In this document: one piece after another, positions 1-12,309 of the stretch
Position numbering within the stretch: the stretch's first letter is position 1
How the letters are laid out: each line of letters starts with the position of its first letter
Assembly (NCBI GenBank): GCA_013335115.1
Contig: JAAXWQ010000006.1
Span: forward strand, 1-64,000
DNA from: Chlorobiaceae bacterium
GTDB lineage: Bacteria; Bacteroidota; Chlorobiia; Chlorobiales; Chlorobiaceae
Reading direction: 5' to 3'
DNA: 64,000 nt
Notes under the pieces: generated by a model
What the model saw: only the letters and a program-made list of their open reading frames with translations
Told to the model about the DNA's origin: nothing
Database searches by the model: none
Translations under genes and position numbers: made by a program

Positions 1-117
1 CATGGCGTTACCGGGTACCAGAAGGTGCCTTAGCCGAGGCTTGAGCCGTGTGCGGTGAAAGTCGCATGCACGGTTCTTAGGGGACGGTGGCGCAGCAATG
101 CGCTGCCGTTACCCGAC
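1..117 (+). mobile_element. 3' end of a group II intron (domains V and VI)
   Basis: The stretch from 43 to about 76 has the compact domain V hairpin of group II introns: GAGCCGTGTGCGGTGAAAGT, then a loop and the complementary half ending GCACGGTTC. A second stem at about 83-109 (ACGGTGGCGCA against TGCGCTGCCGT) fits domain VI. An unpaired A near 111 lies about 7 nt before a final GAC, as expected for the branch point and the 3' splice end at about 117. The intron body and any reverse transcriptase ORF would lie to the left, outside the window. The exact 3' boundary is inferred from family rules. Confidence 0.85.
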
Positions 118-201
118 AAATCTACACTTGACCATCTTGAGCTTGTACACCGGAACCGTGACCAGATTGCTTTGTTTATGTTTCATGATAATGATGGTTA
201 G
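118..201 (+). pseudogene. possible 3' exon: C-terminal end of the gene interrupted by the intron
   Basis: Directly after the intron boundary one frame stays open for 27 codons and ends in TAG at 199-201. The peptide reads like a protein C-terminus (it contains LDHLELVHRNRDQIALFMF). It overlaps the stop codon of the convergent RadC-like gene by a few bases. If the intron splices, this is the last exon of a gene whose start lies outside the window. The family is not recognisable from so short a piece, and the stretch could be chance coding. Confidence 0.3.
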
Positions 202-695
202 GAGATGATGAGGGAGTGGTCACGGAAGCTGAAAAAGCTTCCCGTGCTACCAATGATGACGTGGTCAAGGATTTGCACATCCATGAGCTTTCCTGCATCC
301 ACCAGTGTCTGGGTGACCTGTTTATCGGCATTGCTTGGATTAACGTCACCAGAGGGATGGTTGTGGGCAATGATCAGGGAATGGGCATTGGCAAGGAGCG
401 CACCCTTGAAGACTTCACGAGGATGCACAAGGGATGCGTTCAATGTCCCTTTGCTGATCATCTCCGTACCAATGACCTGATTCTTGGTATTCATGTACAG
501 GGCATGGAACTCCTCCGTAGCCTGTTCATGGAATCCAATGCTTTGCAGGAAATCGGAGATCATCCTGGCACTGGTGATCCGTTCACCGTTGTAATGCAAT
601 CGGGATTCGGTTACCAGCTTGACATGGTAACGGGGAATTACCTGGTGATCCTCATGTGCATTGATGAACAGTGGTAAGGTAGCTGATGCTGTCAT
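198..695 (-). CDS. RadC-like JAMM-domain protein (short form)
   Basis: This 165-aa protein has the RadC/MPN(+) metal-site signature: H111-N-H113, then S121 and D124, inside IIAHNHPSGDVNPSNAD, with a glutamate near residue 61 as the likely general acid. It lacks the N-terminal helix-hairpin-helix domain of chromosomal RadC (about 220 aa), as is usual for copies carried on plasmids, ICEs and prophages. The role of RadC proteins is unresolved despite the DNA-repair name. It is the leftmost complete gene of the mobile segment, convergent with the presumed exon beside the intron. The ATG start has only a weak upstream purine tract. Confidence 0.9.
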   Translation of the reverse strand: MTASATLPLFINAHEDHQVIPRYHVKLVTESRLHYNGERITSARMISDFLQSIGFHEQATEEFHALYMNTKNQVIGTEMISKGTLNASLVHPREVFKGALLANAHSLIIAHNHPSGDVNPSNADKQVTQTLVDAGKLMDVQILDHVIIGSTGSFFSFRDHSLIIS

Positions 696-1152
696 GGTGG
701 TTCAGGATTAAGGTTCAGAAATGCAGCTCCTGAGATGAGAGGTGGACATTAGCGTGGGATCGAAAGAATAGCGGACCTGGTCATGGAGACGCCATGTTCA
801 GGCATTAAGTCTCGGCGAGAAAAAAACGAGGATGAGAGAGCAGAGCCGGGGAGTTTTCTCCCTCAGATTAGATGGGTGGCCTTTGCATGGGAGGTTCACG
901 ATGGCAGAAAAATCGGCGGCGTAAATTTTTTTGGGAAAATATTTCAGCGGAAAATGTAACGGCTTCAGTGCATGCCGGACTGTGATAATACTATCCCTGA
1001 TACCTTGATGATTGGGGTGCCGATTACCTTGTGGAATCCGTTTTCCACAGCATGACCACGATGGGGGAATGGGCTATGGTATTGTCTGTTCAGTATTGAG
1101 GGGTAAAAAAGCCCCCCATACTTGGTGAGGTATGGGGGACTGTATGAGGTAT

Positions 1153-1213
1153 GTCGGCACCTTCGGCACGTAGATCCGCATGGTTATTGATTATAGGTGT
1201 ACAAGGTGCCGAC
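1153..1213. repeat. palindrome-ended ~60-nt repeat, copy 1
   Basis: The unit begins GTCGGCACCTT and ends AAGGTGCCGAC, an 11-bp terminal inverted repeat, with CCGCATGG in the middle. A second unit lies at 1432-1491. The distal arm GGTGTACAAGGTGCCGAC of this copy is the reverse complement of the proximal arm of copy 2. The function is unknown: it could be a binding-site array, a transfer or replication origin, or a small non-autonomous element. Confidence 0.75.
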
Positions 1214-1431
1214 GTCGTTTTCGCCGCACTCGCCGATTTTAGCTGAAGTTGTGCCAGTCTATTACGATAGGGGGCGATTTTCCGGCGAACCTCGGACACG
1301 ATTTCCGGAGAATGTTGAACAAGTATTCATGATGAATTTATGGATTTGCTGCTCATGAGATTTCTGAAAACCATGCGGTACGACAGGGTTGTCACGGAAC
1401 AGCTGTTTTCGTTGCAGCCATTAGAAATGGC

Positions 1432-1491
1432 GTCGGCACCTTGTACACCTTTAGCCGCATGGATAAAGGATATACCTGCCGAAGGTGCCGA
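1432..1491. repeat. palindrome-ended ~60-nt repeat, copy 2
   Basis: This is the second unit of the pair, with ends GTCGGCACCTT and AAGGTGCCGA and the shared core CCGCATGG. It lies just downstream of the stop of the DUF3987 gene, so it could also act as a transcription-end hairpin for that gene. The arms match copy 1 both directly and in inverted orientation. Confidence 0.75.
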
Positions 1492-1506
1492 TACCGATTA
1501 CCGTTT

Positions 1507-2847
1507 TTAGAGCAGTTTCACGATTTTCATCTCCTGCCCCGATGATGATTTCTCATCATGCACGCTCAAGAGCCCAATGTCCTGACCAGCTTCCAGTAGT
1601 TTTTGAAAATATCCTGCCGGAAGTTTCCCCATACGCTTCTGAAGCTCTCTCGCATTGAGCCAGCCACGGTTTTCACGCAGGATGCGTACGGCTTTAGGCA
1701 GTTTCTGGGCGTATGGATTCATCTGGAAATTCTGCTTGATCAAATACGCGATGACTCGCAAGTAGTAGGTTGTCGCAGCAATGGCCTGCGTCATCGTCTC
1801 CCCTGTGATGAAGAGCCGGTTTTCATTCCACTCCTCTTCCTCTACCGCGATCTTTACCGTTTCGTAGATCATGGCGATCTTGAATTTTACGACGTCAAGC
1901 CTTCCTTGATAGGACGTGAGGAGACCAGCCAGATTAGGTTCACTCAGGTGCAGAGCGTCAAGAAACGCATGCTCCTGCTCGAATGATTTCTGGTATGCGA
2001 GCTTCGCCTCACTTGAGAGCTGGAAGCCCATTTCTGCATCGCTGATGACTTCTGCCACATTAATGACAGCATCGATCATGTTGATGAGGCGCTCCTCTTC
2101 TTCAACTGATGGCGGCTGAATTTCAATGAGTGACTTCGGTTCACTCGTTTTTTCTGGCACAGCGACAAACAGGAACCGTTGCAGGAACCCGCTGTGCTTG
2201 TCGTCTTCGGAAATCTTCTTGCCGAACTGCGCCATCGTGATGCCGCCAAAAATCGACAGGCAAGGGTTGTCGATGACAGAGAACTCTTTTTTTAGCTGCC
2301 GCTTGTAACGGTTTCCGTCATAGACGTCGATGACGAAGCTCTGAAAGTCCTTGTTGAACTCCTTCTTCATGTTGTCGAGGAAGGTAGCCAACTCGGAGTA
2401 ACAAGCGATTCCGGAGTTCATCACCTGTTTTGTCTCGTTTCCTTGCGGTTCTCGCATGGCTTCGATCATTCCTTCCAGACTTCCACTGTCTGGCATTATT
2501 AGGTTCAACCCTCGTCGCCGCTCAAGCTCCCTTAGACAATGCACGGTAAAGGATACCGCCGTGGACTTCCGGCTGACGGTACTGCCTGCAAGCAGTAGCA
2601 TATAAAGGTTCGGCTTGACTCGTTGACGCCCTATTTGGCAGTGGACCTTGTTGCCGATAGCCGCAACCATCGTCATCAGCACACTGCTGAAGAGGAATGC
2701 CTTCGGGGCATCGCTCATGGTCTGATAATATGAGATAACCCAGGCGAACAGCTCCAGAGGAATTGCTTCCTCTGGGATCTCTGGGTTGCTGAGAAAATCA
2801 TTGCTGGACAGCAATGCCCCTTCGTTGGGGGTTTCTGATGTACTCAT
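1507..2847 (-). CDS. DUF3987 family helicase/primase-like protein of mobile elements
   Basis: This 446-aa protein matches the DUF3987 pattern found in phages, plasmids and integrative elements. It has a nucleotide-binding-like loop at residues 87-96 (AGSTVSRKST), a middle segment with DVYDGNRYKRQLKKE, and SIFGGITMAQF followed by GFLQRFLFVAVPE. The loop departs from a classic Walker A because Arg93 stands where glycine normally precedes the lysine. The C-terminal ~80 residues resemble a winged-helix tail. Its ATG overlaps the stop of the upstream HTH gene (ATGA), so the two are translationally coupled. A role in element replication or DNA processing is inferred from the family. Confidence 0.8.
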   Translation of the reverse strand: MSTSETPNEGALLSSNDFLSNPEIPEEAIPLELFAWVISYYQTMSDAPKAFLFSSVLMTMVAAIGNKVHCQIGRQRVKPNLYMLLLAGSTVSRKSTAVSFTVHCLRELERRRGLNLIMPDSGSLEGMIEAMREPQGNETKQVMNSGIACYSELATFLDNMKKEFNKDFQSFVIDVYDGNRYKRQLKKEFSVIDNPCLSIFGGITMAQFGKKISEDDKHSGFLQRFLFVAVPEKTSEPKSLIEIQPPSVEEEERLINMIDAVINVAEVISDAEMGFQLSSEAKLAYQKSFEQEHAFLDALHLSEPNLAGLLTSYQGRLDVVKFKIAMIYETVKIAVEEEEWNENRLFITGETMTQAIAATTYYLRVIAYLIKQNFQMNPYAQKLPKAVRILRENRGWLNARELQKRMGKLPAGYFQKLLEAGQDIGLLSVHDEKSSSGQEMKIVKLL

Positions 2848-3113
2848 ATAGCACTCCTTTCCGCCGGTGTTGACGGGTTTGAGGCCATGTAGGCATCAAG
2901 GTCAAAACGCCGGAAACACAACTTGCCCCTGTTTGGCCTAGTGTAGGGGATTTTACCGGATTTGGCCAGCCGATAAAGAGTACTTCTCGATCTACCTATA
3001 TAGGCAGCGGCCTGTATGGTGTCTAGAAATGGTTGCGAGAGTACCCTGAGGGTGCTCATCTCATGTTGGAATGCGAGTATGATGCTCTCGCTGGCTATTG
3101 TATGTGAAACCAT
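2844..3113 (-). CDS. small HTH DNA-binding protein (excisionase/AlpA-like)
   Basis: This 89-aa protein has a MerR-type helix-turn-helix (HTH_17 family) at residues 31-76: DTIQAAAYIGRSRSTLYRLA, then a basic wing around KIPYTRPNRGKLCFRR and the closing FDLDAYM. Such proteins serve as excisionases, recombination directionality factors or small regulators in integrative elements. It overlaps the DUF3987 start by 4 bp. The upstream 150 bp contain repeated sites that could be its own operator. Translation may start at 3113 or at the internal Met19; the HTH is intact either way. Confidence 0.85.
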   Translation of the reverse strand: MVSHTIASESIILAFQHEMSTLRVLSQPFLDTIQAAAYIGRSRSTLYRLAKSGKIPYTRPNRGKLCFRRFDLDAYMASNPSTPAERSAI

Positions 3114-3115
3114 AT

Positions 3116-3197
3116 TGATAATGATTTATTGGTTAAAAAAGCTGACCGCCGGCACATGCCTGCGCACAACGTCAATACCAATAAACCATTATCATGA
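3116..3197. promoter_or_regulatory. spaced inverted repeat upstream of the HTH gene
   Basis: GATAATGATTTATTGGT near 3117-3133 is repeated as its reverse complement ACCAATAAACCATTATC near 3178-3194, with 16 of 17 bases matching across a spacer of about 44 bp. The repeat lies directly upstream of the HTH gene's start and is probably an operator or recombination-protein site. The binding protein is not known. Confidence 0.6.
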
Positions 3198-3221
3198 CTT
3201 CTTTTATCCCGTACTAGGACT

Positions 3222-3272
3222 TTCTCAACCAATCAACCTTTTTATCAACCGTATGGTTGATTGGATCAACCA
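3222..3272 (-). promoter_or_regulatory. cluster of GGTTGAT direct repeats
   Basis: On the minus strand GGTTGA(T) occurs four times within about 50 bp, and CCAATCAACC occurs once in inverted orientation, so part of the cluster can fold as a hairpin. It spans the stop codon of the 347-aa gene and the region upstream of the HTH gene. It could be an iteron-like binding array or a terminator between the two genes. Confidence 0.55.
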
Positions 3273-4309
3273 TTTTCCTGCCGAAGTCGGTCTACGGCTC
3301 TAGAGATGTCGGATTTTCGTGATTTGTAATGGTGCCTCCTTGCGCATTCTGGAGTCACTCCAAGAAACCGTGCGAGAATATCGAGCTTGATCTCGTAAAG
3401 CTTTTTGTCTTTGGTGCGAGTCCGTCTAAGTTCGTCTTGAGTCTGAGTGTCAAGCTTCTTGAACTCCAGATAGGCGAATTCCAACAAAGAGGTACAAGCC
3501 ATATTTTCTCCGGGACCTTCAGCTACTGGCGCTTGCTGGGTCATCGATGAGGCATTGTATTTCCGCAACCATTTTTCAAGGACGTTGATGAACAGCCAGT
3601 ACATGTAGGCCATACGGCTGGCGCCCATTGAAACAGAATGAGACACAGCATACTCGTCCTGAACTCTATCCAAAAGTTGCTCGATGTATGATCGCGCTGT
3701 TTCAGGATTTTCTTTGTCGAGCAGATTCAGGGCGTCTCTCAAAAAGACGGCGACAAGGGTGTTCGCCTGCCGTTGATTCCTCTCGTATTTCTTTTGAATC
3801 TTGTGCTTTTCCGGAGAAAATGGCGCACTCGTATCAGGATCTTTTTCATAGTAAGCTCTCATGGTTTCCAAGAGCTTAATGGCCATTTTGAGCCAATCCT
3901 TGTTTTTCTGGAACCCTTGATATGCATCCTTTGCTTCTTGCTGGAACCTTTCGACGTATTGAGCGAGATATTCATCGATGAGGGCATCTCCCGTAAGAAA
4001 ATCTTCAAGATCCAAGTCATAAGGACAATCCCCATCAGCAACGAGACTAATCTCCTCGGGAAGCACCACCTGTTGCTGTTCTTTATCGGGATTGGAATTC
4101 TGCTGGTCTTCGGGAAGGGAGCCTTGCTGAGGGTATTGGGTGTCGATCATAACAGACGAGGGTTGCTGTTGCCGATGACTAAGGAAGGTGGAGAAATTAA
4201 GCCGGTATCTGCTCGCAGGGCGAAGCCTCATCAAAAGGTACGCATTTTCAACATCCAATAGCACTTGGTGGGTATAATCTGTGCCTATAGAGCTTCCCGA
4301 TTGGCTCAA
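3266..4309 (-). CDS. hypothetical protein of the mobile element
   Basis: I do not recognise this 347-aa protein. The N-terminal ~45 residues are basic. Residues about 45-80 are a Gln/Pro-rich, probably disordered linker. The middle is helical and charged, and the C-terminal ~60 residues (DKKLYEIKLDILARFLGVTP then RRHHYKSRKSDISRAVDRL) look like a basic HTH-type segment. There is no signal peptide or membrane segment. The start is uncertain: the longest form uses a TTG codon without a clear ribosome site, and GTG or ATG codons within the first 30 codons are alternatives. It precedes the HTH/DUF3987 pair on the same strand, so it is probably an element function. Confidence 0.6.
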   Translation of the reverse strand: MSQSGSSIGTDYTHQVLLDVENAYLLMRLRPASRYRLNFSTFLSHRQQQPSSVMIDTQYPQQGSLPEDQQNSNPDKEQQQVVLPEEISLVADGDCPYDLDLEDFLTGDALIDEYLAQYVERFQQEAKDAYQGFQKNKDWLKMAIKLLETMRAYYEKDPDTSAPFSPEKHKIQKKYERNQRQANTLVAVFLRDALNLLDKENPETARSYIEQLLDRVQDEYAVSHSVSMGASRMAYMYWLFINVLEKWLRKYNASSMTQQAPVAEGPGENMACTSLLEFAYLEFKKLDTQTQDELRRTRTKDKKLYEIKLDILARFLGVTPECARRHHYKSRKSDISRAVDRLRQENG

Positions 4310-4496
4310 GAATTTCGAAAAACCTTGTTATGAAATCGTTTGAGAGCGAAGACTTCAGAGTGCCCAGGCTTCGTCATGTTCTTGCTCCTGAGGGGCTGCG
4401 AGAGGGGGGGGCTGACGTGACCGAGTGTCATTGTGAACATCCTTGTCGATATTGCGGTGATTACTATAGAGAATAGGGGTGAAATTACCTTGCAAA

Positions 4497-4532
4497 GTAT
4501 CCCTCAAATGCCATATAATGTATCCCTCAAAA
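4497..4532. repeat. GTATCCCTCAAA direct repeat near the element end
   Basis: The 12-mer GTATCCCTCAAA occurs at 4497-4508 and again at 4520-4531, 23 bp apart, in AT-rich DNA about 70-100 bp inside the tRNA fragment. Direct repeats in this position are typical arm-type sites for tyrosine integrases or excisionases. That role is inferred from location only. Confidence 0.55.
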
Positions 4533-4597
4533 TTAATGTATCGCGTTTCTATTGCTATTAAGATGTTATTAAGTAATAAGTTAATGTGTTTTGGGTG

Positions 4598-4648
4598 GTC
4601 TGACTCTTAATCAGTGGGTCCAAGGTTCGAATCCTTGCGAGTGCACCA
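4598..4648 (+). other. 3' fragment of tRNA-Lys(CTT): probable attachment site of the integrated element
   Basis: The segment carries an anticodon arm (TCTGA CTCTTAA TCAG, anticodon CTT), a variable loop, a perfect T-arm (CAAGG TTCGAAT CCTTG) and a 3' acceptor strand CGAGTGC followed by ACCA. No matching 5' acceptor strand (GCACTCG) or D-arm exists in the ~75 bases upstream, so the gene is not complete here. A 3' tRNA remnant beside phage/ICE-type genes is the classic footprint of site-specific integration. The intact tRNA-Lys should lie at the other end of the element, left of the window. Confidence 0.85.
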
Positions 4649-4654
4649 TATAAA

Positions 4655-4696
4655 ATAAGGACTTACAGGCATTGAGCTGTAGGTCCTTATTTATTT
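4655..4696 (+). terminator. rho-independent-type hairpin after the tRNA-Lys fragment
   Basis: AATAAGGACTTACAG and CTGTAGGTCCTTATT form a 15-bp stem with one G-U pair around a short loop and are followed by T-rich sequence. This is presumably the original terminator of the tRNA-Lys gene and marks the first chromosomal DNA to the right of the element. Confidence 0.8.
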
Positions 4697-4782: not shown

Positions 4783-5286
4783 TTATGTGCAAGCCAGGAA
4801 TCCCTCATTGAACTCGACAAATCCTTCAGGTGCGGGCTCGGCAAATGGCAATGCAAGAAACACTTCCTGAGGAATTCCCTGATGGATCAGTTTTGGCAGA
4901 TTATGAAAGCCGAACCTGATGTAATAATTCGGGTCGCCCACAAGGGCACAACCGTTGCCGCCCATCTCTTTTATGTAATCCATCCCGGCACGCATGAGCG
5001 ATGACCCAAATCCTCTCCGTTGAAATTCGGGTGCTACTGAAAGAGGGCCAATTCCGTACCATGCGTTCGTTCCATCCGATATCGTAACCGGAGAAAACGC
5101 GATATGGCCGACAATCCGGCCGTCAAGTTCGGCGACAAGCGAAAGACTCAGTGCGCCAGAGGTTCTCAGCGCTTTTACGATGTACTGCTCTGTTTGCCGG
5201 CTGATCGGGTGATGTTCAAATGCTGATCGGGTCACCTGATCGATAGCATTGATATCACGCGGTTCTTCTTTTCTGATCCTGATCAT
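4783..5286 (-). CDS. GNAT family N-acetyltransferase
   Basis: This 167-aa protein has the GNAT fold. The acetyl-CoA-binding motif A is at about residues 80-100 (LSVAPEFQRRGFGSSLMRAG), preceded by the beta strand ELDGRIVGHIAFSPV. The pattern GDPNYYIRFGFHN near 118-130 is typical of the YhbS-like subgroup. The substrate cannot be told from sequence. It is a single gene next to the element boundary, transcribed towards it, and may owe its position to being just downstream of the tRNA target. Confidence 0.85.
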   Translation of the reverse strand: MIRIRKEEPRDINAIDQVTRSAFEHHPISRQTEQYIVKALRTSGALSLSLVAELDGRIVGHIAFSPVTISDGTNAWYGIGPLSVAPEFQRRGFGSSLMRAGMDYIKEMGGNGCALVGDPNYYIRFGFHNLPKLIHQGIPQEVFLALPFAEPAPEGFVEFNEGFLACT

Positions 5287-5691
5287 ACATAATCCTTTTT
5301 GTTGCTTTTTATTACCGATCGATGGTGTCTACCGGAGTTCCGATCCTGTTTTCGCTTTTCGGCATGGAACAGTTCGAGTTCGTAGACTTCTGGCAAATTA
5401 GTCATTCGGCCCGGAATATCCGGTATCATTGCATTACTGCCACCGAGGCTTGAGTCTGGTAATAATACCGTAAAATGTGGTCAGAAAATCGGGGTGCACT
5501 CCACGAGCACTGGTCATATTTTCTTAATCTGCCTGTCGTTCCTGGAAGCACTTGTGGATTATTTTCATCTCTTGCCGAAAGAATCGCCCGCGGAAAACGT
5601 ATACACTGATGTGGACAGGACAACGCGCGTTCTTCCTATTGCAGATGACCACTATCAGGAATAAAAGTTTTTAACGTAAAGCGAGGCACTT
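5287..5691. other. intergenic stretch without a convincing gene
   Basis: A 65-codon minus-strand frame at 5426-5623 has no recognisable features and no ribosome site. The right end must hold the promoter and leader of the secreted protein gene that starts at 5692. Nothing else is identifiable. Confidence 0.5.
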
Positions 5692-6240
5692 ATGAAAAAA
5701 CAGATTTTGTTCGCGATCGGTATTGCCGGTCTGTTCGCCGGCCAACCGTCTGGTGATGCGCAGGCGGATGTTCGTGTGGGGGTAAACGTGCCCGGTGGGC
5801 CCAGTTTCTTTTTCTCCGACCGGCCGGATTTCATCCACCTTCGTGACCGAGGCTATTCGGTATCCTATGGTTCTCCTTATGATGTAATCTACTACGGCAA
5901 CTCCTACTTCCTCTTTCAAGATGGCAGTTGGTACCGTGCACACGACTACAGGGGACCCTGGGGTCGGGTGAGGAATTTCGAGATTCCTCCCCAGATCAGG
6001 CGGCATCGCATCGAGGATATCCGCCGGTTCCGCGACATGGAATACCGCAGGCACGACCGCCGGTTCTGGGATAACCGGTTCAGGCGCGACCGTGACGAGT
6101 GGCGCGGCCGTGATACGCGTCGCGAACGTTTCGATGACCGTCGTGGCCCCGATGATCGTAGAGGTCCGGATGATCGTAGAGGTCCTGATGATCGCAGAGG
6201 GCCCGATGATCGCCGGGGTCCAGGCTTCGACAGGAGATAA
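5692..6240 (+). CDS. secreted Arg/Asp-rich protein with DDRRGP repeats
   Basis: This 182-aa protein has a signal peptide (MKKQILFAIGIAGLFAG, cleavage near residue 25). A ~75-residue segment follows with aromatic motifs (VIYYGNSYFLFQDGSWYRA and YRGPWGRV) seen in small secreted proteins of unknown function in diderm bacteria. The tail is very basic and acidic: an Arg/Asp-rich stretch, then about five tandem DDRRGP hexapeptides before the end. The 18-bp DNA units at about 6135-6230 are near-identical, so repeat number may vary between strains. A GAGG ribosome site lies 9 bases before ATG. Location is presumably periplasmic; the function is unknown. Confidence 0.85.
   Translation: MKKQILFAIGIAGLFAGQPSGDAQADVRVGVNVPGGPSFFFSDRPDFIHLRDRGYSVSYGSPYDVIYYGNSYFLFQDGSWYRAHDYRGPWGRVRNFEIPPQIRRHRIEDIRRFRDMEYRRHDRRFWDNRFRRDRDEWRGRDTRRERFDDRRGPDDRRGPDDRRGPDDRRGPDDRRGPGFDRR
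6135..6237 (+). repeat. in-gene tandem repeat encoding DDRRGP
   Basis: Tandem 18-bp units of the form GATGATCGTAGAGGTCC (with small changes) encode the DDRRGP hexapeptides at the C-terminus of the secreted protein. Five units can be counted, and the last is followed by GFDRR and the stop. Confidence 0.85.
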
Positions 6241-6352
6241 TCAGGTAATAGGGTAAGTCTGCAGGGCGTCGGTATCGGTTTCCTGCATGTCCTTGCAAAG
6301 CCCGGTCGTTGACGCCCGGGCTTTGTGCAATCAATAAAACAGGAGTGTTCGT

Positions 6353-6583
6353 ATGGTTCAGGAATGGTACCATTCATGGTTCTGGTCCTTTTCGTCCCCG
6401 GTGCTCGCGTTTGTCTTGACCGTGCTGCTCTGGGTGGTCTATTTCATCCCGTCGATCGTCGCCGTCAAGCGGAACCATCGCAGTAAGGGCGGGATCATGG
6501 CGCTGAACCTCCTGCTCGGCTGGACCTTCATCGGGTGGATCGGCGCCCTGGTATGGTCACTCTCATGGCCTGGTCGTGACTGA
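6353..6583 (+). CDS. superinfection immunity-type small membrane protein
   Basis: This 76-aa protein has two membrane helices (residues about 16-36 and 49-70) separated by a basic loop, AVKRNHRSKGGI. The second helix carries ALNLLLGWTFIGWIGALVW, the signature of the superinfection-immunity family named after phage T4 Imm. Chromosomal members are common and most have no proven role in phage exclusion. It sits alone between two secreted-protein genes; a purine-rich AGGAG lies ahead of the start. Confidence 0.85.
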   Translation: MVQEWYHSWFWSFSSPVLAFVLTVLLWVVYFIPSIVAVKRNHRSKGGIMALNLLLGWTFIGWIGALVWSLSWPGRD

Positions 6584-6707
6584 TCCTCAATGTCGGTCCT
6601 GTAGTGGTAACGGAAATATTAATTGAAAGAATGTGTTAAATGCCGTCGTAGTAATGAATGGACGGTGTGGCCATCTCGGCCCCACCGAATTCAACAAAAG
6701 GACAACG

Positions 6708-7019
6708 ATGAAAAAGAAAATGACTTACGGTGTTATCGCGGCTATGGCGATGAGTGGTGTCTTCGGTGGCGTCTCTTTTGCGGCTGATGCCGTAACTCCG
6801 AAACCGGCAGCAACGGCTCCCGCAGTTGAAAAGAAAGTGGAGCCAAAGGCCGAGATGAAAGTCGAGAAAAAGACTACGAAGAAAGTGAAGAAAGTATCGA
6901 AGACGGTTGAAAAAAAGAGTGAAGCCAAGCCCGAGGTAAAACCTGTGGCCAAACCCGAAGCCAAACCCGAAGCCAAACCCGAAGCCAAACCTGCAGTCAA
7001 GCCTATAGAGGGCAAGTAA
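6708..7019 (+). CDS. secreted Lys/Ala/Pro-rich low-complexity protein
   Basis: This 103-aa protein starts at the ATG preceded by AAAAGGAC. The frame continues 25 codons further upstream, but that part lacks a ribosome site and would displace the signal peptide. Residues 1-25 are a signal peptide (MTYGVIAAMAMSGVFGGVSF then AADA). The rest is built of Lys, Ala, Pro, Glu and Val, with tandem KPEA units near the C-terminus. Such chains are extended and may span the periplasm or coat the envelope. There is no catalytic domain. A strong terminator follows directly. Confidence 0.75.
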   Translation: MKKKMTYGVIAAMAMSGVFGGVSFAADAVTPKPAATAPAVEKKVEPKAEMKVEKKTTKKVKKVSKTVEKKSEAKPEVKPVAKPEAKPEAKPEAKPAVKPIEGK

Positions 7020-7055
7020 ATGATTACTGCGGATCGTATCTGCAGCTGTTTTCCT

Positions 7056-7090
7056 GAAAATCCCCTTCGATGCAAGGGGATTTTCTTTTT
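7056..7090 (+). terminator. rho-independent terminator
   Basis: GAAAATCCCCTT and AAGGGGATTTTC form a perfect 12-bp stem around CGATGC and are followed by TTTTT. It ends the Lys/Pro-rich protein gene. Confidence 0.92.
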
Positions 7091-7217
7091 GTGCAGGCTA
7101 TCGTCAGGCTTCCGGCTCACCATGCCCCGCAGTTGAGGACAGGATGTTGTGCAATCCCACATGCTGTCATAAATTCTAAACGATGCAAGGGGCATCATTA
7201 CATAACCGGAGGGGAAC

Positions 7218-9161
7218 ATGTATCCTGTCAACATGGAACGGCAAAAGCATATCCGGCAAAGCAGATGGATGCTGCTGCTCATCATCCTGTCGTTTTACTG
7301 CGCTGTACCGGCAATCGCCGGCGGCACCACGCTGAAGGTCCTTTTCACGCACGACCTGCACTCATATCTCTCGCCACATCATGAATCCGGTCCTGATGGC
7401 CGCGTCCTCGATGTCGGCGGTTTCGCCCGCATGGCCGGTGCGGTCGACGATGAACGCAAGGGGCTGGGTGACGGTGTCCTGCTCCTTGACGCCGGCGACT
7501 TCGCCGAAGGGACCCTTTTCCATACGGTGTTTTCAGATGAGGCGCTTGAGCTGCGGCTGATGGGGGCGCTTGGCTACGATGCCGTCACCTTCGGCAACCA
7601 CGATTTTGATTTCTACCCGTCGGGCCTGGCCGCGATGCTTCGAACGGCCCGATCGAAAGCAGCCCGTCTTCCCTCGCTGGTGCTGGCCAACCTCCGGTTC
7701 AGCGCGAACGATCCCCGCGACGCAGGGCTGAAAAATGCCTTCAGGGAGTACCCGGTCCGCGACTATGTGGTGCTTGAACGCAATGGGCTTCGTATCGGCG
7801 TTTTCGGCCTGCTTGGCAAGGATGCCGCCGAAGACAGCCCTTTTGCGGCTCCCCTCGGTTTCGTCGATCCGGTCGAGGCGGCCAAACCGGTCGTCCGGCT
7901 CCTGAAGGAGCGTGAAAAGGTGGATCTGGTCGTTTGCCTGTCGCATGGCGGAACCAGTCCGGTCCGGTCGCATTCCGAAGATGAGAAGCTTGCGGCCGCA
8001 GTGCCCGGCATCGACCTTATCATCAGCGGTCATACGCATACGATCCTTCCGAAACCCAAGGTCGTGGGCAACACCATCATCGTTTCTTCCGGCCCCTACG
8101 GCGCCCGCCTTGGCGTCCTCAGCCTTCGGGTGGATAAAGGAGGCCGCGTCGCCGTCACCGGCTACCGCCTGCGGACGATCGACGCAGGAGTCCCGGAAGA
8201 TCCCGGGATCGCCAGGCAGGTCGCCGGTTTCCAGGATATTGTCGAGCGTCGGTACCTTTCCCATTTCGGTTATCGTTTCGACCAGGTGCTCGCGAACATT
8301 CCCTTCGACGCTCCGACACTGAATCAACTGTACTTGCATCCCGGTGAAAACGGCCTTGGCAACCTGGTCACCGATGCTTACCGTTTTGCTGTCAAACGTG
8401 CCGAAGGCGAACACTATCGGCGGGTGGACGCCGCCATTGATGTGCTGGGCTGCATCCGTTCGCCGCTGCTGCGTGGCGACGTCACCACCGAGGATGCCTT
8501 CCAGACCGCTTCGCTCGGCCCCGTGCAGCAAGGATACTGCGGCAACACCCTGGTTGCTCCTTACGTGACGGGGGAGGAGCTGAAGAGCCTCCTCGAGGTC
8601 GAAACATCCCTGGCCCCCATGAAGAAGGACGGCCATCTGAGCGTTTCCGGTATCCGCTTCGGTTACAATCCCAACAGGATGTTGTTTGACCGGGTGACCT
8701 CGGTTGAACTGCAGGGTGACGATGGCAGCTTCACCACCGTGCAGGATGGCCGCCTCTATCGCGTCGTGGTCAACTCTTACCTGGCACGTCTGGTCGGCCT
8801 CATCAGCACAAAGTCCCATGGTATCATCAAGGTCGCCTTCAGGGACGCACAAGGCAACCTCGCCACGAACCTTGACCAGCTGATCGTGCAGGACGGCGAC
8901 GAAGCTCTCCGGGAGTGGGTCGCCCTGGCCCGCTACCTCTCGTCGTTTCCCGTACGCGACGGCCGGCCGGAAGTGCCCGAAAGGTATGCGCGGGCAGAAG
9001 GAAGGATCGTTGTTGCGGCTTCGTGGAATCCTGTCGACCTCGTTGCAGGAGGTAACTGGCTGACCTGGAGCGCTTTCGCCCTGGTCGTCGCTATCCTCAC
9101 CTTGTGCGCATTTGGCTTCAGCAAACTCTTTAGCCGCTTCGGAAGACGGATCAATGGCTGA
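7218..9161 (+). CDS. 5'-nucleotidase/2',3'-cyclic phosphodiesterase-like metallophosphoesterase
   Basis: This 647-aa exported enzyme has an N-terminal hydrophobic signal (residues 19-35). The calcineurin-like metallophosphatase domain carries FTHDLHSYL, LLDAGDFAEG, FGNHDFDFY, CLSHGGTS and ISGHTHTILPKP. A 5'-nucleotidase C-terminal domain (about 350-570) and a C-terminal transmembrane helix (about 615-635) with a basic tail follow. The family hydrolyses nucleoside monophosphates, UDP-sugars or cyclic nucleotides in the periplasm; the exact substrate is unknown. The start is supported by CCGGAGGGG eight bases upstream. The first metal motif is DLHS rather than the usual DxHG/DTHS. Confidence 0.9.
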   Translation: MYPVNMERQKHIRQSRWMLLLIILSFYCAVPAIAGGTTLKVLFTHDLHSYLSPHHESGPDGRVLDVGGFARMAGAVDDERKGLGDGVLLLDAGDFAEGTLFHTVFSDEALELRLMGALGYDAVTFGNHDFDFYPSGLAAMLRTARSKAARLPSLVLANLRFSANDPRDAGLKNAFREYPVRDYVVLERNGLRIGVFGLLGKDAAEDSPFAAPLGFVDPVEAAKPVVRLLKEREKVDLVVCLSHGGTSPVRSHSEDEKLAAAVPGIDLIISGHTHTILPKPKVVGNTIIVSSGPYGARLGVLSLRVDKGGRVAVTGYRLRTIDAGVPEDPGIARQVAGFQDIVERRYLSHFGYRFDQVLANIPFDAPTLNQLYLHPGENGLGNLVTDAYRFAVKRAEGEHYRRVDAAIDVLGCIRSPLLRGDVTTEDAFQTASLGPVQQGYCGNTLVAPYVTGEELKSLLEVETSLAPMKKDGHLSVSGIRFGYNPNRMLFDRVTSVELQGDDGSFTTVQDGRLYRVVVNSYLARLVGLISTKSHGIIKVAFRDAQGNLATNLDQLIVQDGDEALREWVALARYLSSFPVRDGRPEVPERYARAEGRIVVAASWNPVDLVAGGNWLTWSAFALVVAILTLCAFGFSKLFSRFGRRING

Positions 9162-9216
9162 TACCGTTCGATGACTGATTGGCAGGGAATGTTGGCGACG
9201 ATCTTTGTTGGGGGCG

Positions 9217-9249
9217 TAAGTTAACGTTTTCAGGAACGTCCCCAAAGTT
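9217..9249. repeat. GGGGACGTTCC-type interspersed repeat, copy 1
   Basis: This 33-bp segment contains CAGGAACGTCCCCAAAGTT. It recurs at 21265-21297 with a single base change. Both copies are intergenic. The GGGGACG core also opens the palindromes at 9889 and 63479. Repeats with this core often accompany REP-associated tyrosine transposases, but no such gene is visible here. Confidence 0.7.
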
Positions 9250-9402
9250 GATGCAACTTTTTGCGGCTGGGTCCTATTATGGAAATGTTGGGTAGTCATA
9301 TGTTTCTGTCTCCCCCTGTATGGTTAACACTCCGTACCGCTCTGGCAAAGGGCTGTTAACCTGTTTATTTGTAACGACACGAATGAATAAACGGGGACGA
9401 AA

Positions 9403-9870
9403 ATGAAAAAGATCCAGTTACTGATCGGCATGATCGCAGCGATGCCTCTTGTGCTGCAAACAGCATTTGCCACTCCTCCGGATGTGACCGTCATCTACAA
9501 GGCAGGCGTTGGCAACTACCTGGCCGATGCCAATGGCAGGACGCTCTACTGGAGCAAAAAAGACATGCCGAAAACAACCAAATGCACCGGGGCATGCCTT
9601 GAAAAATGGCCAGCGTTCTTTAACGAAGCGATCCTGTCGGCCGATCCTGAAATGAACTCGTCGGATTTCGGCACGATCATCCGGCCGGACGGGAAGAAGC
9701 AGACCACCTTCAGGGGTTATCCGCTCTATTACTACAAGATGGACCAGGTGCGCGGCGACACCAAGGGCCATAAGGCCAACGCTGCCTGGTTCGCTATGCT
9801 GCCCGGCAAATTCCACCTCGTCGAGAAATACTACACCGGCAACAGCACCACGGTCGGCACGACGGACTGA
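9403..9870 (+). CDS. secreted COG4315/Lipoprotein_15-type repeat protein
   Basis: This 155-aa protein has a signal peptide (residues 1-23). The single unit of the 'secreted repeat of unknown function' family shows YLADANGRTLYWSKKD, then TTKCTGACLEKWPAFF with two cysteines likely to form a disulfide, and FRGYPLYYYKMDQVRGDTKG and a closing AAWFAML. Family members are periplasmic or surface proteins of unknown activity, sometimes near redox enzymes. The start ATG follows ACGGGGACG. It is monocistronic, ended by the GGGGACGTCCCC palindrome. Confidence 0.85.
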   Translation: MKKIQLLIGMIAAMPLVLQTAFATPPDVTVIYKAGVGNYLADANGRTLYWSKKDMPKTTKCTGACLEKWPAFFNEAILSADPEMNSSDFGTIIRPDGKKQTTFRGYPLYYYKMDQVRGDTKGHKANAAWFAMLPGKFHLVEKYYTGNSTTVGTTD

Positions 9871-9888
9871 CCCGGAATCGGAATCGGA

Positions 9889-9906
9889 AAAGGGGACGTC
9901 CCCTTT
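9889..9906. repeat. 18-bp perfect palindrome AAAGGGGACGTCCCCTTT
   Basis: This perfect palindrome lies 18 bp after the COG4315 gene stop and shares its GGGGACG core with the repeats at 9217, 21265 and 63479. It could be a transcription-end hairpin or a degraded copy of the same interspersed element. Confidence 0.65.
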
Positions 9907-9997
9907 CGACGTTCCCTTTCGTCATGACAGGGAAAAATGATTTTATTAGGGGTATGCAATCCGTTTTGGCATTGTTCAACCTTATCAGTTCAAGTTC

Positions 9998-10876
9998 ATG
10001 AAGAGGGTCCTTGTCGCCGGGGCGACCGGTTATCTTGGCCGGTATGCCGTGCAGGAGTTCAAGAAGAAAGGGTACCTGGTGCGTGCGCTGGTGCGAAACC
10101 CCGAGAAGTTCAAAAAGCCGGGGGCGTTTTTTGCCCCTGCTATCGAGGACCTGGTCGATGAGGTGGTGTATGCGGATGCCACGATGCCTGAAACCCTTTC
10201 GGGCATTTGCGACGGCGTCGATGTGGTCTTTTCGTCGCTCGGCATGATCAAGCCCGATTTCGTGCATACGGTTTTCGATGTCGATTACCAGGGGAACATG
10301 AACATCCTGGATCAGGCGATCAAGGCCGGTGTGGGGAAGTTCGTCTACGTGTCGGTGTTCGATGCGCACCGGATGATGAACATCCCGAATGTGCAGGCTC
10401 ACGAGAAGTTCGTCAAGGAGTTGCAGGCTTCGAGGATCGAGAGCACGATCATCAGGCCGAACGGCTATTTCTCGGAGATCGGGCAGTTCGTGGCACGGGC
10501 GAAGAGGGGATTCATGTTCTGGATCGGCGACGGCTTCGTCCGTTCAAACCCGATCCACGGGGCGGACCTCGCGGAGGTGTGCGTGCAGGCGGTCGACGGC
10601 CGGGAGCGGGAGGTCGAGGTTGGCGGGCCGGAGGTGTTCACCTATTACGAGATGGTCGACCTGGCTTGCGAGATCGCCGGCGAAAAACCGCTGATGCTCC
10701 CGCTGCCGTTCTGGCTGGCCGATGGACTGGTGGCCGCCGTCGGGCTGTTCAACAAGGAGGTACATGACGTTGCGTTGTTCGCGACCACCCTGAGCAAGAT
10801 TGACGTCGTGTCACCGAAGTACGGCACCCGCCGGTTGCGCGACTTCTTTACGCAGTGCAGGTTGCTTGCCGGTTGA
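9998..10876 (+). CDS. NAD(P)-binding NmrA/SDR-like oxidoreductase
   Basis: This 292-aa protein has an N-terminal Rossmann glycine motif, VAGATGYLGRYA (residues 6-17), followed by VRALVRNPEKF as the NADP-type ribose/phosphate contact. The atypical SDR pattern continues with VDVVFSSLG and FVYVSVFDAH, and with IRPNGYFSEI near residues 148-157. The classical YxxxK pair is missing, as in many NmrA-like and complex I 39-kDa-like proteins, so it may act on an unusual substrate or as a redox sensor. It stands alone on the plus strand, followed by a hairpin at 10892-10931. Confidence 0.85.
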   Translation: MKRVLVAGATGYLGRYAVQEFKKKGYLVRALVRNPEKFKKPGAFFAPAIEDLVDEVVYADATMPETLSGICDGVDVVFSSLGMIKPDFVHTVFDVDYQGNMNILDQAIKAGVGKFVYVSVFDAHRMMNIPNVQAHEKFVKELQASRIESTIIRPNGYFSEIGQFVARAKRGFMFWIGDGFVRSNPIHGADLAEVCVQAVDGREREVEVGGPEVFTYYEMVDLACEIAGEKPLMLPLPFWLADGLVAAVGLFNKEVHDVALFATTLSKIDVVSPKYGTRRLRDFFTQCRLLAG

Positions 10877-10891
10877 GGTCGTGCCCGATAT

Positions 10892-10931
10892 GGCAAGCCC
10901 TGAACCCATGAGGGTGTTTGCCAGGGCTTAC
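10892..10931. terminator. hairpin between convergent genes
   Basis: CAAGCCCTG and CAGGGCTT pair around an inner CCC/GGG stem. The hairpin lies between the convergent NmrA-like gene and the minus-strand hypothetical gene, so it can serve both. There is no strong T run. Confidence 0.55.
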
Positions 10932-10941
10932 GCGACGGGCC

Positions 10942-11307
10942 TCAGACCTCTTCGTCGTTGATGAGCAGGATGACCAGGCGGTCGTCGCCCAGTGCATCCT
11001 TCACCTCTTGCGTCCATTCGATCGATGCCTCTTCGAGCTCGAAAATCACAAAATCCTCAAAATCCTCAAGGACCGATTCGTCTGCGTCGACGTAGAGGTC
11101 GTCGGGCGTGGTGACCTTGATCAGGATGCTCGGTTCTGCATCAATGCCTTCCCCGTACATGTCGAATTCGATGGCGACGCTGCTGGCCACGGTTCCGGTG
11201 AGTTCGACGAGCTTGCCGTTTTCGAGAAGCTTGGTTTCGATGCTGTCGAGGTCGGCGAGTACTCCTGCGAATTTCGGGTCGTCATGGAGGTTGATGGTCT
11301 GGCTCAT
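10942..11307 (-). CDS. conserved hypothetical acidic protein
   Basis: This 121-aa, strongly acidic cytoplasmic protein begins MSQTINLHDDPKF. I prefer this ATG to an upstream one at 11358, whose 17 extra residues look non-conserved and basic. It has no signal peptide, membrane segment or known motif. The sequence alternates beta-like strands (VASSVAIEFDMYG, SILIKVTTPDDLYV, VILLIN), suggesting a small alpha/beta fold. Its function is unknown. Confidence 0.65.
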   Translation of the reverse strand: MSQTINLHDDPKFAGVLADLDSIETKLLENGKLVELTGTVASSVAIEFDMYGEGIDAEPSILIKVTTPDDLYVDADESVLEDFEDFVIFELEEASIEWTQEVKDALGDDRLVILLINDEEV

Positions 11308-11418
11308 GGATGTTCGGTTTGTGGTTGGTTTCGGGATCATTTCCGGCAAAATAGTCATAAACGCCTAACAGGCCGAACAAAAATGGTGTTTAGTAAAAGG
11401 TCATCACGGGCAGCTTGA

Positions 11419-12309
11419 TCAGGAGCTCGCCCATGCTGCCGCGAAATCCGGGGCGAACGTTTCCAGCCTTCGCCATCCCGCAAGCACCGGGCGGTGGCTG
11501 AAATAGTGGGCCATCATCTCGCCGCTGCGGATGGCGGACCCCATTTCGGTATAGTTTTTCGCCAGTTCGTCGGGCAGGCCGAGCCGGAGCATCTCCGCAC
11601 AGCTCTCTTCGTCGGTACGGTCGATCCATTGAAGTCCGGGCCTGGAGATCGCCTTGCCGAGGATTGTGGCGATGTCGTCCGTCGTTCGTTCATCACTTGC
11701 GATGTAGCGGAACCCCCTGCCGAGGAACGACGGGTTCTGCAACTCCCTGGCTGCTTCGTCGGCAATGTCGAGCGGGTGGACGAGTGCCAGCTTGGTTTTT
11801 TTTCCGAAATTGCCGCTGAGGGCGTCCGTTTGCCTTATGCCGGGAATGCTGTTGATGAAATTGGTGTAGAAGTAGGCGGCGCGGAGATGGCGGACGTTCA
11901 CCCCGTCAAGCGCGTTGAGGGCGAATTCGACAAGATGCAGGCCGTTGACGGGGCCGCATCCGGTATGCAGGTGCGCACCGATGCTGCTGAGGTTCACGAC
12001 ATGGCGCACACCCGAGGCGACGACGGCATCGGCATAGTTCCGGCCGATCTGCGCGATGTGCCCTTTCCAGTCGCCTCCCGTATAGTTCGGCGGTACCAAG
12101 GTGAAGACCCCGTCGGCGCCCTTGAATGTTTTGGTGAGGAAGGCGATATCTTCGACCGAACCGAGTGCCGGTGTCGCCCCCATGGCTTCGATTTTTGCTT
12201 TCTTTTCGGGGTCATTGCTGACGATGGTGACCGAGTGTCCGGCGTCGAGGAGCAGGGAGGCGAGCGGTTTGCCGACGTGGCCCAGTGAGCCGGTGACGAT
12301 GTAGTTCAT
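11419..12309 (-). CDS. NmrA-like NAD(P)-binding protein
   Basis: This 296-aa protein has the N-terminal Rossmann motif VTGSLGHVGKPLA (residues 5-17) and a basic segment, SNDPEKKAK, after strand 2, typical of the QOR2/NmrA branch of atypical SDRs. HVVNLSSIGAH marks strand 5, and LRAAYFYTNFINSIP is the substrate-side segment. The GxxGxxG glycines are partly replaced (GSLGHVG). It is probably an NADPH-dependent quinone or dye reductase or a redox-sensing regulator; the substrate is not known. It is monocistronic, downstream of the N-ATPase operon on the same strand. Confidence 0.85.
   Translation of the reverse strand: MNYIVTGSLGHVGKPLASLLLDAGHSVTIVSNDPEKKAKIEAMGATPALGSVEDIAFLTKTFKGADGVFTLVPPNYTGGDWKGHIAQIGRNYADAVVASGVRHVVNLSSIGAHLHTGCGPVNGLHLVEFALNALDGVNVRHLRAAYFYTNFINSIPGIRQTDALSGNFGKKTKLALVHPLDIADEAARELQNPSFLGRGFRYIASDERTTDDIATILGKAISRPGLQWIDRTDEESCAEMLRLGLPDELAKNYTEMGSAIRSGEMMAHYFSHRPVLAGWRRLETFAPDFAAAWASS

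Follow-up and report, generated by a model that had tools for sequence, protein, structure and literature searches.

The window analysed here is the 64,000-nucleotide stretch formed by bases 1-64000 of contig C6 (84,579 bp), in the 29-contig, 2.10-Mb genome of a Chlorobiaceae bacterium (G000). At 4600-4648, on the forward strand, it contains a 49-bp 3' fragment of a tRNA-Lys(CTT) gene, covering tRNA positions 28-76 from the anticodon stem to the CCA end and identical at 49/49 positions (100%) to G000:C24:2688-2736. The initial annotation had described this feature as a tRNA 3' half deprived of its 5' half, and the sequence agrees: ARAGORN makes no call at this position and the Rfam score stays below the gathering cut-off. 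Downstream of the fragment, a hairpin with 16-bp arms (94%) occupies 4653-4692 on the forward strand, with a folding energy of -22.7 kcal/mol and a z-score of -6.9. Upstream, also on the forward strand, the 12-bp direct repeat GTATCCCTCAAA is found in two exact copies (4497-4508 and 4520-4531; together 4497-4531) whose starts are 23 bp apart, as had been annotated. A promoter-like match at 4490 is no better than chance. Base composition changes at the fragment, with a GC content of 0.484 in 1-4599 vs 0.596 in 4649-64000.

Taken alone, the GTATCCCTCAAA pair proves little, since three further pairs of identical 12-mers lying within 48 bp of each other occur elsewhere in the window. A close 12-mer pair is in itself unremarkable; its weight comes from the recurrence of the motif at a second locus of the genome, where it is present at G000:C24:2552 and 2564. 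This second locus, on contig C24, harbors the sole intact tRNA-Lys(CTT) found in the genome (G000:C24:2688-2763, minus strand). Reading from the 3' end of this tRNA, one encounters a terminator, several GTATCCCTC-type sites, a tyrosine integrase of 402 aa, a Gp49/HTH toxin-antitoxin-like pair, the remnant of another integrase and the end of the contig. With -34.2 kcal/mol and z -9.3, this terminator is unlike the hairpin of the window, and the GTATCCCTC-type sites comprise two tandem copies at 12-bp spacing and one copy in the reverse direction. The integrase is complete: it combines Arm-DNA-bind_3 and Phage_integrase matches, with arm-binding, core-binding and catalytic domains, and the R, HxxR, H and Y motifs appear conserved in our reading of an alignment with two relatives. 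Its gene reads inward, starting on the 3' side of the intact tRNA at a distance of 0.2 kb. The remnant (G000:C24:196-414) stems from a second, related but truncated integrase, 81% identical over 73 aa (aa 324-396), and lies inward of the toxin-antitoxin-like pair. The annotation had placed outside the window both an intact tRNA-Lys(CTT), expected to have some 50 bp in common with the fragment, and an adjacent integrase; both are indeed present on C24.

The two loci are further connected by the 11-mer GTATCCCTCAA, which occurs only seven times in the 2.1-Mb genome: four of these copies are located at the two tRNA-Lys loci, two at each, while the reversed control pattern is absent from the whole genome. 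This distribution makes GTATCCCTCAA a good candidate for the integrase arm site and, the motif being rare and common to both places, provides a connection between the two contig ends that does not depend on the tRNA match. The GTATCCCTCAAA repeats are situated approximately 70-100 bp from the 49-bp core, on the same side as the low-GC genes, and the motif recurs between core and integrase on C24, an arrangement that fits their annotation as putative arm-type sites.

Between the two tRNA-Lys ends, at least 7.3 kb of low-GC DNA can be read, 2.7 kb on C24 (the integrase, the toxin-antitoxin-like pair and the integrase remnant) and 4.6 kb on C6, with GC contents of 0.48-0.51 vs 0.58-0.60 in the flanks. 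The interior is absent from the readable assembly, and a search for overlaps found no readable contig end matching C24:1 or C6:1; five small contigs read as N. The first base of the window, which is also that of contig C6, falls within or next to a group II intron, the 3' end of which (domains V-VI) is recognized at 41-117 on the forward strand (Rfam RF00029, 61.3 bits, E 2.4e-10); this intron end has no second copy in the readable genome, and no link was made between it and the single reverse-transcriptase match, on contig C19. The reading frame beyond the intron end closes near base 200; it could represent the 3' exon of a gene lacking its start.

The four protein-coding genes that follow are all on the reverse strand. 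A RadC-family JAB protein of 165 aa (198-695; PF04002, E 1e-42) is followed by a pair of 60-bp repeats containing nested inverted repeats (1153-1212 and 1432-1491, spanning 1153-1491), which are 72% alike, lie directly downstream of the next gene and constitute a possible replication origin. That gene (1507-2847) encodes a primase/helicase-like DUF3987 protein of 446 aa (PF13148, E 7.9e-20), which also matches PHROG primase/helicase families with E-values of 6e-13 and weaker. Next comes an 89-aa AlpA/excisionase-like HTH protein (2844-3113; PF12728, E 2e-12) that scores over the cut-off of TIGR01764 'excise' and matches phrog_66, an excisionase/regulator family. The gene closest to the tRNA fragment (3266-4309) encodes an orphan protein of 347 aa with no Pfam, PHROG, NCBIfam or PADLOC match, no counterpart among 295 further genomes from the same phylum and no match in plasmids; its single-sequence fold model is uninformative (pLDDT 41). 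Scans of genome contigs and viral contigs for the integrase and for DUF3987 returned no relative, and no close relative of the whole element was found.

The chromosomal nature of the DNA on the other side of the fragment was established by comparison with 17 congeners, in which the region behind tRNA-Lys was examined over at most 19 kb. In two of them, G019 and G017, homologues of the window genes at 5692, 6654, 9403, 9998 and 10942 directly follow tRNA-Lys in matching orientation, with 68-90% identity, and in G017 tRNA-Lys is additionally trailed by homologues of the genes at 7218 and 11419. The region 5692-12309 thus corresponds to genes that adjoin the intact tRNA in these relatives, although the genes nearest to the fragment on its right have in part changed their order. 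Further away, the window genes between 19278 and 31642 follow tRNA-Lys in most congeners, including single-contig genomes. None of the genes found on the low-GC side occurs at the tRNA-Lys of the 17 congeners. In G019, moreover, the terminator behind tRNA-Lys is nearly identical to the hairpin at 4653-4692. Gene order in G019 and G017 and the G019 terminator together indicate that DNA right of the fragment formerly followed the intact tRNA, and that the hairpin is the old tRNA terminator, as annotated. The succession of low-GC mobile genes and chromosomal genes that the annotation had proposed is borne out likewise, by GC content and by these homologues. Judged by gene order, the tRNA-Lys loci of G019 and G017 are the empty site, which supplies the strains lacking the insertion that the annotation had called for as a check. 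One gene departs from this picture: a GNAT acetyltransferase gene (4783-5286, reverse strand; PF00583), the first on the chromosomal side, stands between the fragment and the conserved neighbours. It has homologues in 13 of the 20 other genomes of the genus, and in the four single-contig relatives possessing one, this homologue is far from tRNA-Lys.

Observed, then, are two att ends, an integrase, repeats common to both ends and an empty site in relatives. We consider it highly probable (about 0.93) that a tyrosine integrase inserted a mobile element into the 3' part of tRNA-Lys(CTT), and that 4600-4692 represents attR with the adjoining chromosome; the claim that this is the right end of an integrated element, made initially from the window, finds its counterpart in the core and integrase on C24. 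The element's attP would have carried a 49-bp copy of the tRNA 3' part together with a terminator of its own. Recombination would have taken place within the core, probably at the anticodon loop; a core that begins in the anticodon stem fits the class of anticodon-loop crossovers. On the left side (C24, attL), the tRNA gene would thereby have remained whole and acquired the element's new terminator, while the original 3' part and the old terminator were pushed to the right (C6, attR). The 402-aa integrase would bind the GTATCCCTCAA sites that flank the core on both sides, and the excisionase-like protein (2844-3113) could help it excise the element, should the latter still be mobile. As the ends are on different contigs, that one single element spans them is inferred.

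This last point opens the way to another scenario, in which two successive insertions at tRNA-Lys produced a tandem or composite array whose missing middle would hold a further att site: the fragment and the right-hand genes would belong to an older element and the intact integrase to a newer one. Such a history would account for the integrase remnant (81% identity over aa 324-396) that lies beyond the toxin-antitoxin-like pair toward the interior, and for the convergence of the right-hand genes and the integrase, which do not form one unit; possible footprints of other elements are also found at tRNA-Lys in congeners. Against it, the same repeat motif is present at both outer ends, though the remnant integrase could have used the same sites, and the readable genome contains no third tRNA-Lys(CTT) fragment of such length. 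We regard an array as unlikely. Doubtful too, if somewhat less so, is the view that the element is genuine but dead, having integrated and since become incapable of excision: its second integrase is truncated and a group II intron end is lodged inside it, but the 402-aa integrase is intact, as are the 49-bp cores at the two ends. Far more improbable than either is a tRNA pseudogene arising from local duplication or recombination with no element involved. Duplication of tRNA-Lys in the absence of an integrase does occur in G006, where a histidine-kinase-like gene lies between two copies separated by 2.4 kb; yet here an integrase adjoins the intact copy, repeats are common to both ends, lower-GC foreign genes lie on exactly one side, and the genes of the other side follow intact tRNA in relatives.

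Integration of an element at tRNA-Lys(CTT) remains the preferred reading, and it is supported by a second genus of the family, in which G095 repeats the arrangement of intact tRNA-Lys, displaced fragment, integrase and doubled repeat. The G095 integrase, 47% identical to ours, lies beside a tRNA-Lys(CTT) fragment of positions 29-76, the intact tRNA-Lys being found on a separate contig. Both ends carry the same terminator and, on their element side, doubled GGGTGCTTT repeats. Target gene, core span (29-76) and doubled repeats at both ends are thus shared, whereas the repeat motif is GGGTGCTTT instead of GTATCCCTC, and the G095 integrase is located at the end of the displaced fragment, not at that of the intact tRNA. 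A related integrase in G101 adjoins what we read as an apparent tRNA-Arg(ACG) fragment.

Related observations were made at other loci. The doubled repeat of the G095 and G101 integrase att sites, GGGTGCTTT, is found 59-61 bp after tRNA-Lys in four congeners that have no integrase close by (G007, G019, G008 and G013); this suggests past visits by G095-type elements, since lost, although a single event inherited by common descent may also lie behind it. In G006 (G006:C4:15755-18281), the gene flanked by the two tRNA-Lys(CTT) copies is PAS/histidine-kinase-like, and no integrase is present. In the genome under study, contig C20 (45.5 kb) has ends that overlap by 127 bp, closing it into a circle. 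Its tyrosine integrase extends as far as a tRNA 3' fragment that, with its terminator, is uninterrupted (5323-6430 of the region examined), and we also read RtcB- and RusA-like genes on it; C20 looks like a circular phage with an intact attP.

A mobile element of a green sulfur bacterium is here described with its att core resolved to the base, with an intact integrase and with candidate arm sites for that integrase. tRNA-Lys(CTT) has been used by different integrases in Chlorobiaceae, and its att site could serve for integrative vectors in green sulfur bacteria.

In its arrangement, the element is a biologically familiar member of a very common class. The Islander definition of a tDNA island (PMC4383910) combines an intact tDNA, a displaced 3' fragment and an integrase between them, in the correct configuration. 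Here, similarly, an intact tDNA and its cognate fragment occur in one genome, with an integrase inside and a core span of the anticodon type; synteny with G019 and G017 places the fragment downstream of the tDNA in the same orientation, the two being on two contigs. Set beside the Islander length range of 2-200 kb, the element measures at least 7.3 kb readable, its middle missing. The empty site in relatives is supporting evidence outside the formal definition.

The readable 7.3 kb contain neither a relaxase nor type IV secretion genes, the hallmarks of integrative conjugative elements. In gene content, as judged from sequence, the element resembles a phage satellite. Descriptions of PICIs (PMC10111431) list an integrase with AlpA-like and primase-like genes, the latter followed by an origin-like repeat, as well as an arm motif doubled in tandem. 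Like Gram-negative PICI and P4-like satellites, our element has an integrase, AlpA/excisionase-like and primase-like proteins, possible origin repeats and a tandemly repeated arm-like motif close to the core, and no virion structural genes in the readable 7.3 kb. Unlike theirs, its key genes are not unidirectional, the integrase reading inward from attL and alpA/DUF3987 inward from attR, and its primase-like gene is a DUF3987 gene with a predicted primase role, as against the tested primase of PICIs. Since its genes are not unidirectional and it has no known helper, we do not file it as a PICI and call it only possibly PICI-like in its working. Two elements of other Chlorobiaceae with an int-alpA-DUF3987 content, at tRNA-Ser(GCT) in G077 and at tmRNA in G064, likewise carry a distant tyrosine integrase (24-25%), an AlpA-like gene and DUF3987 (44-45%) on one short stretch; they differ by their target genes and by the co-directional transcription of the three genes, and no displaced fragment was found within the stretch examined. 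Tentatively, and with little confidence, we may therefore envisage a phage satellite of green sulfur bacteria, built of an integrase, an AlpA-like switch, a DUF3987 replication protein and an origin in a convergent layout, with a resident phage, for instance C20, as its possible helper.
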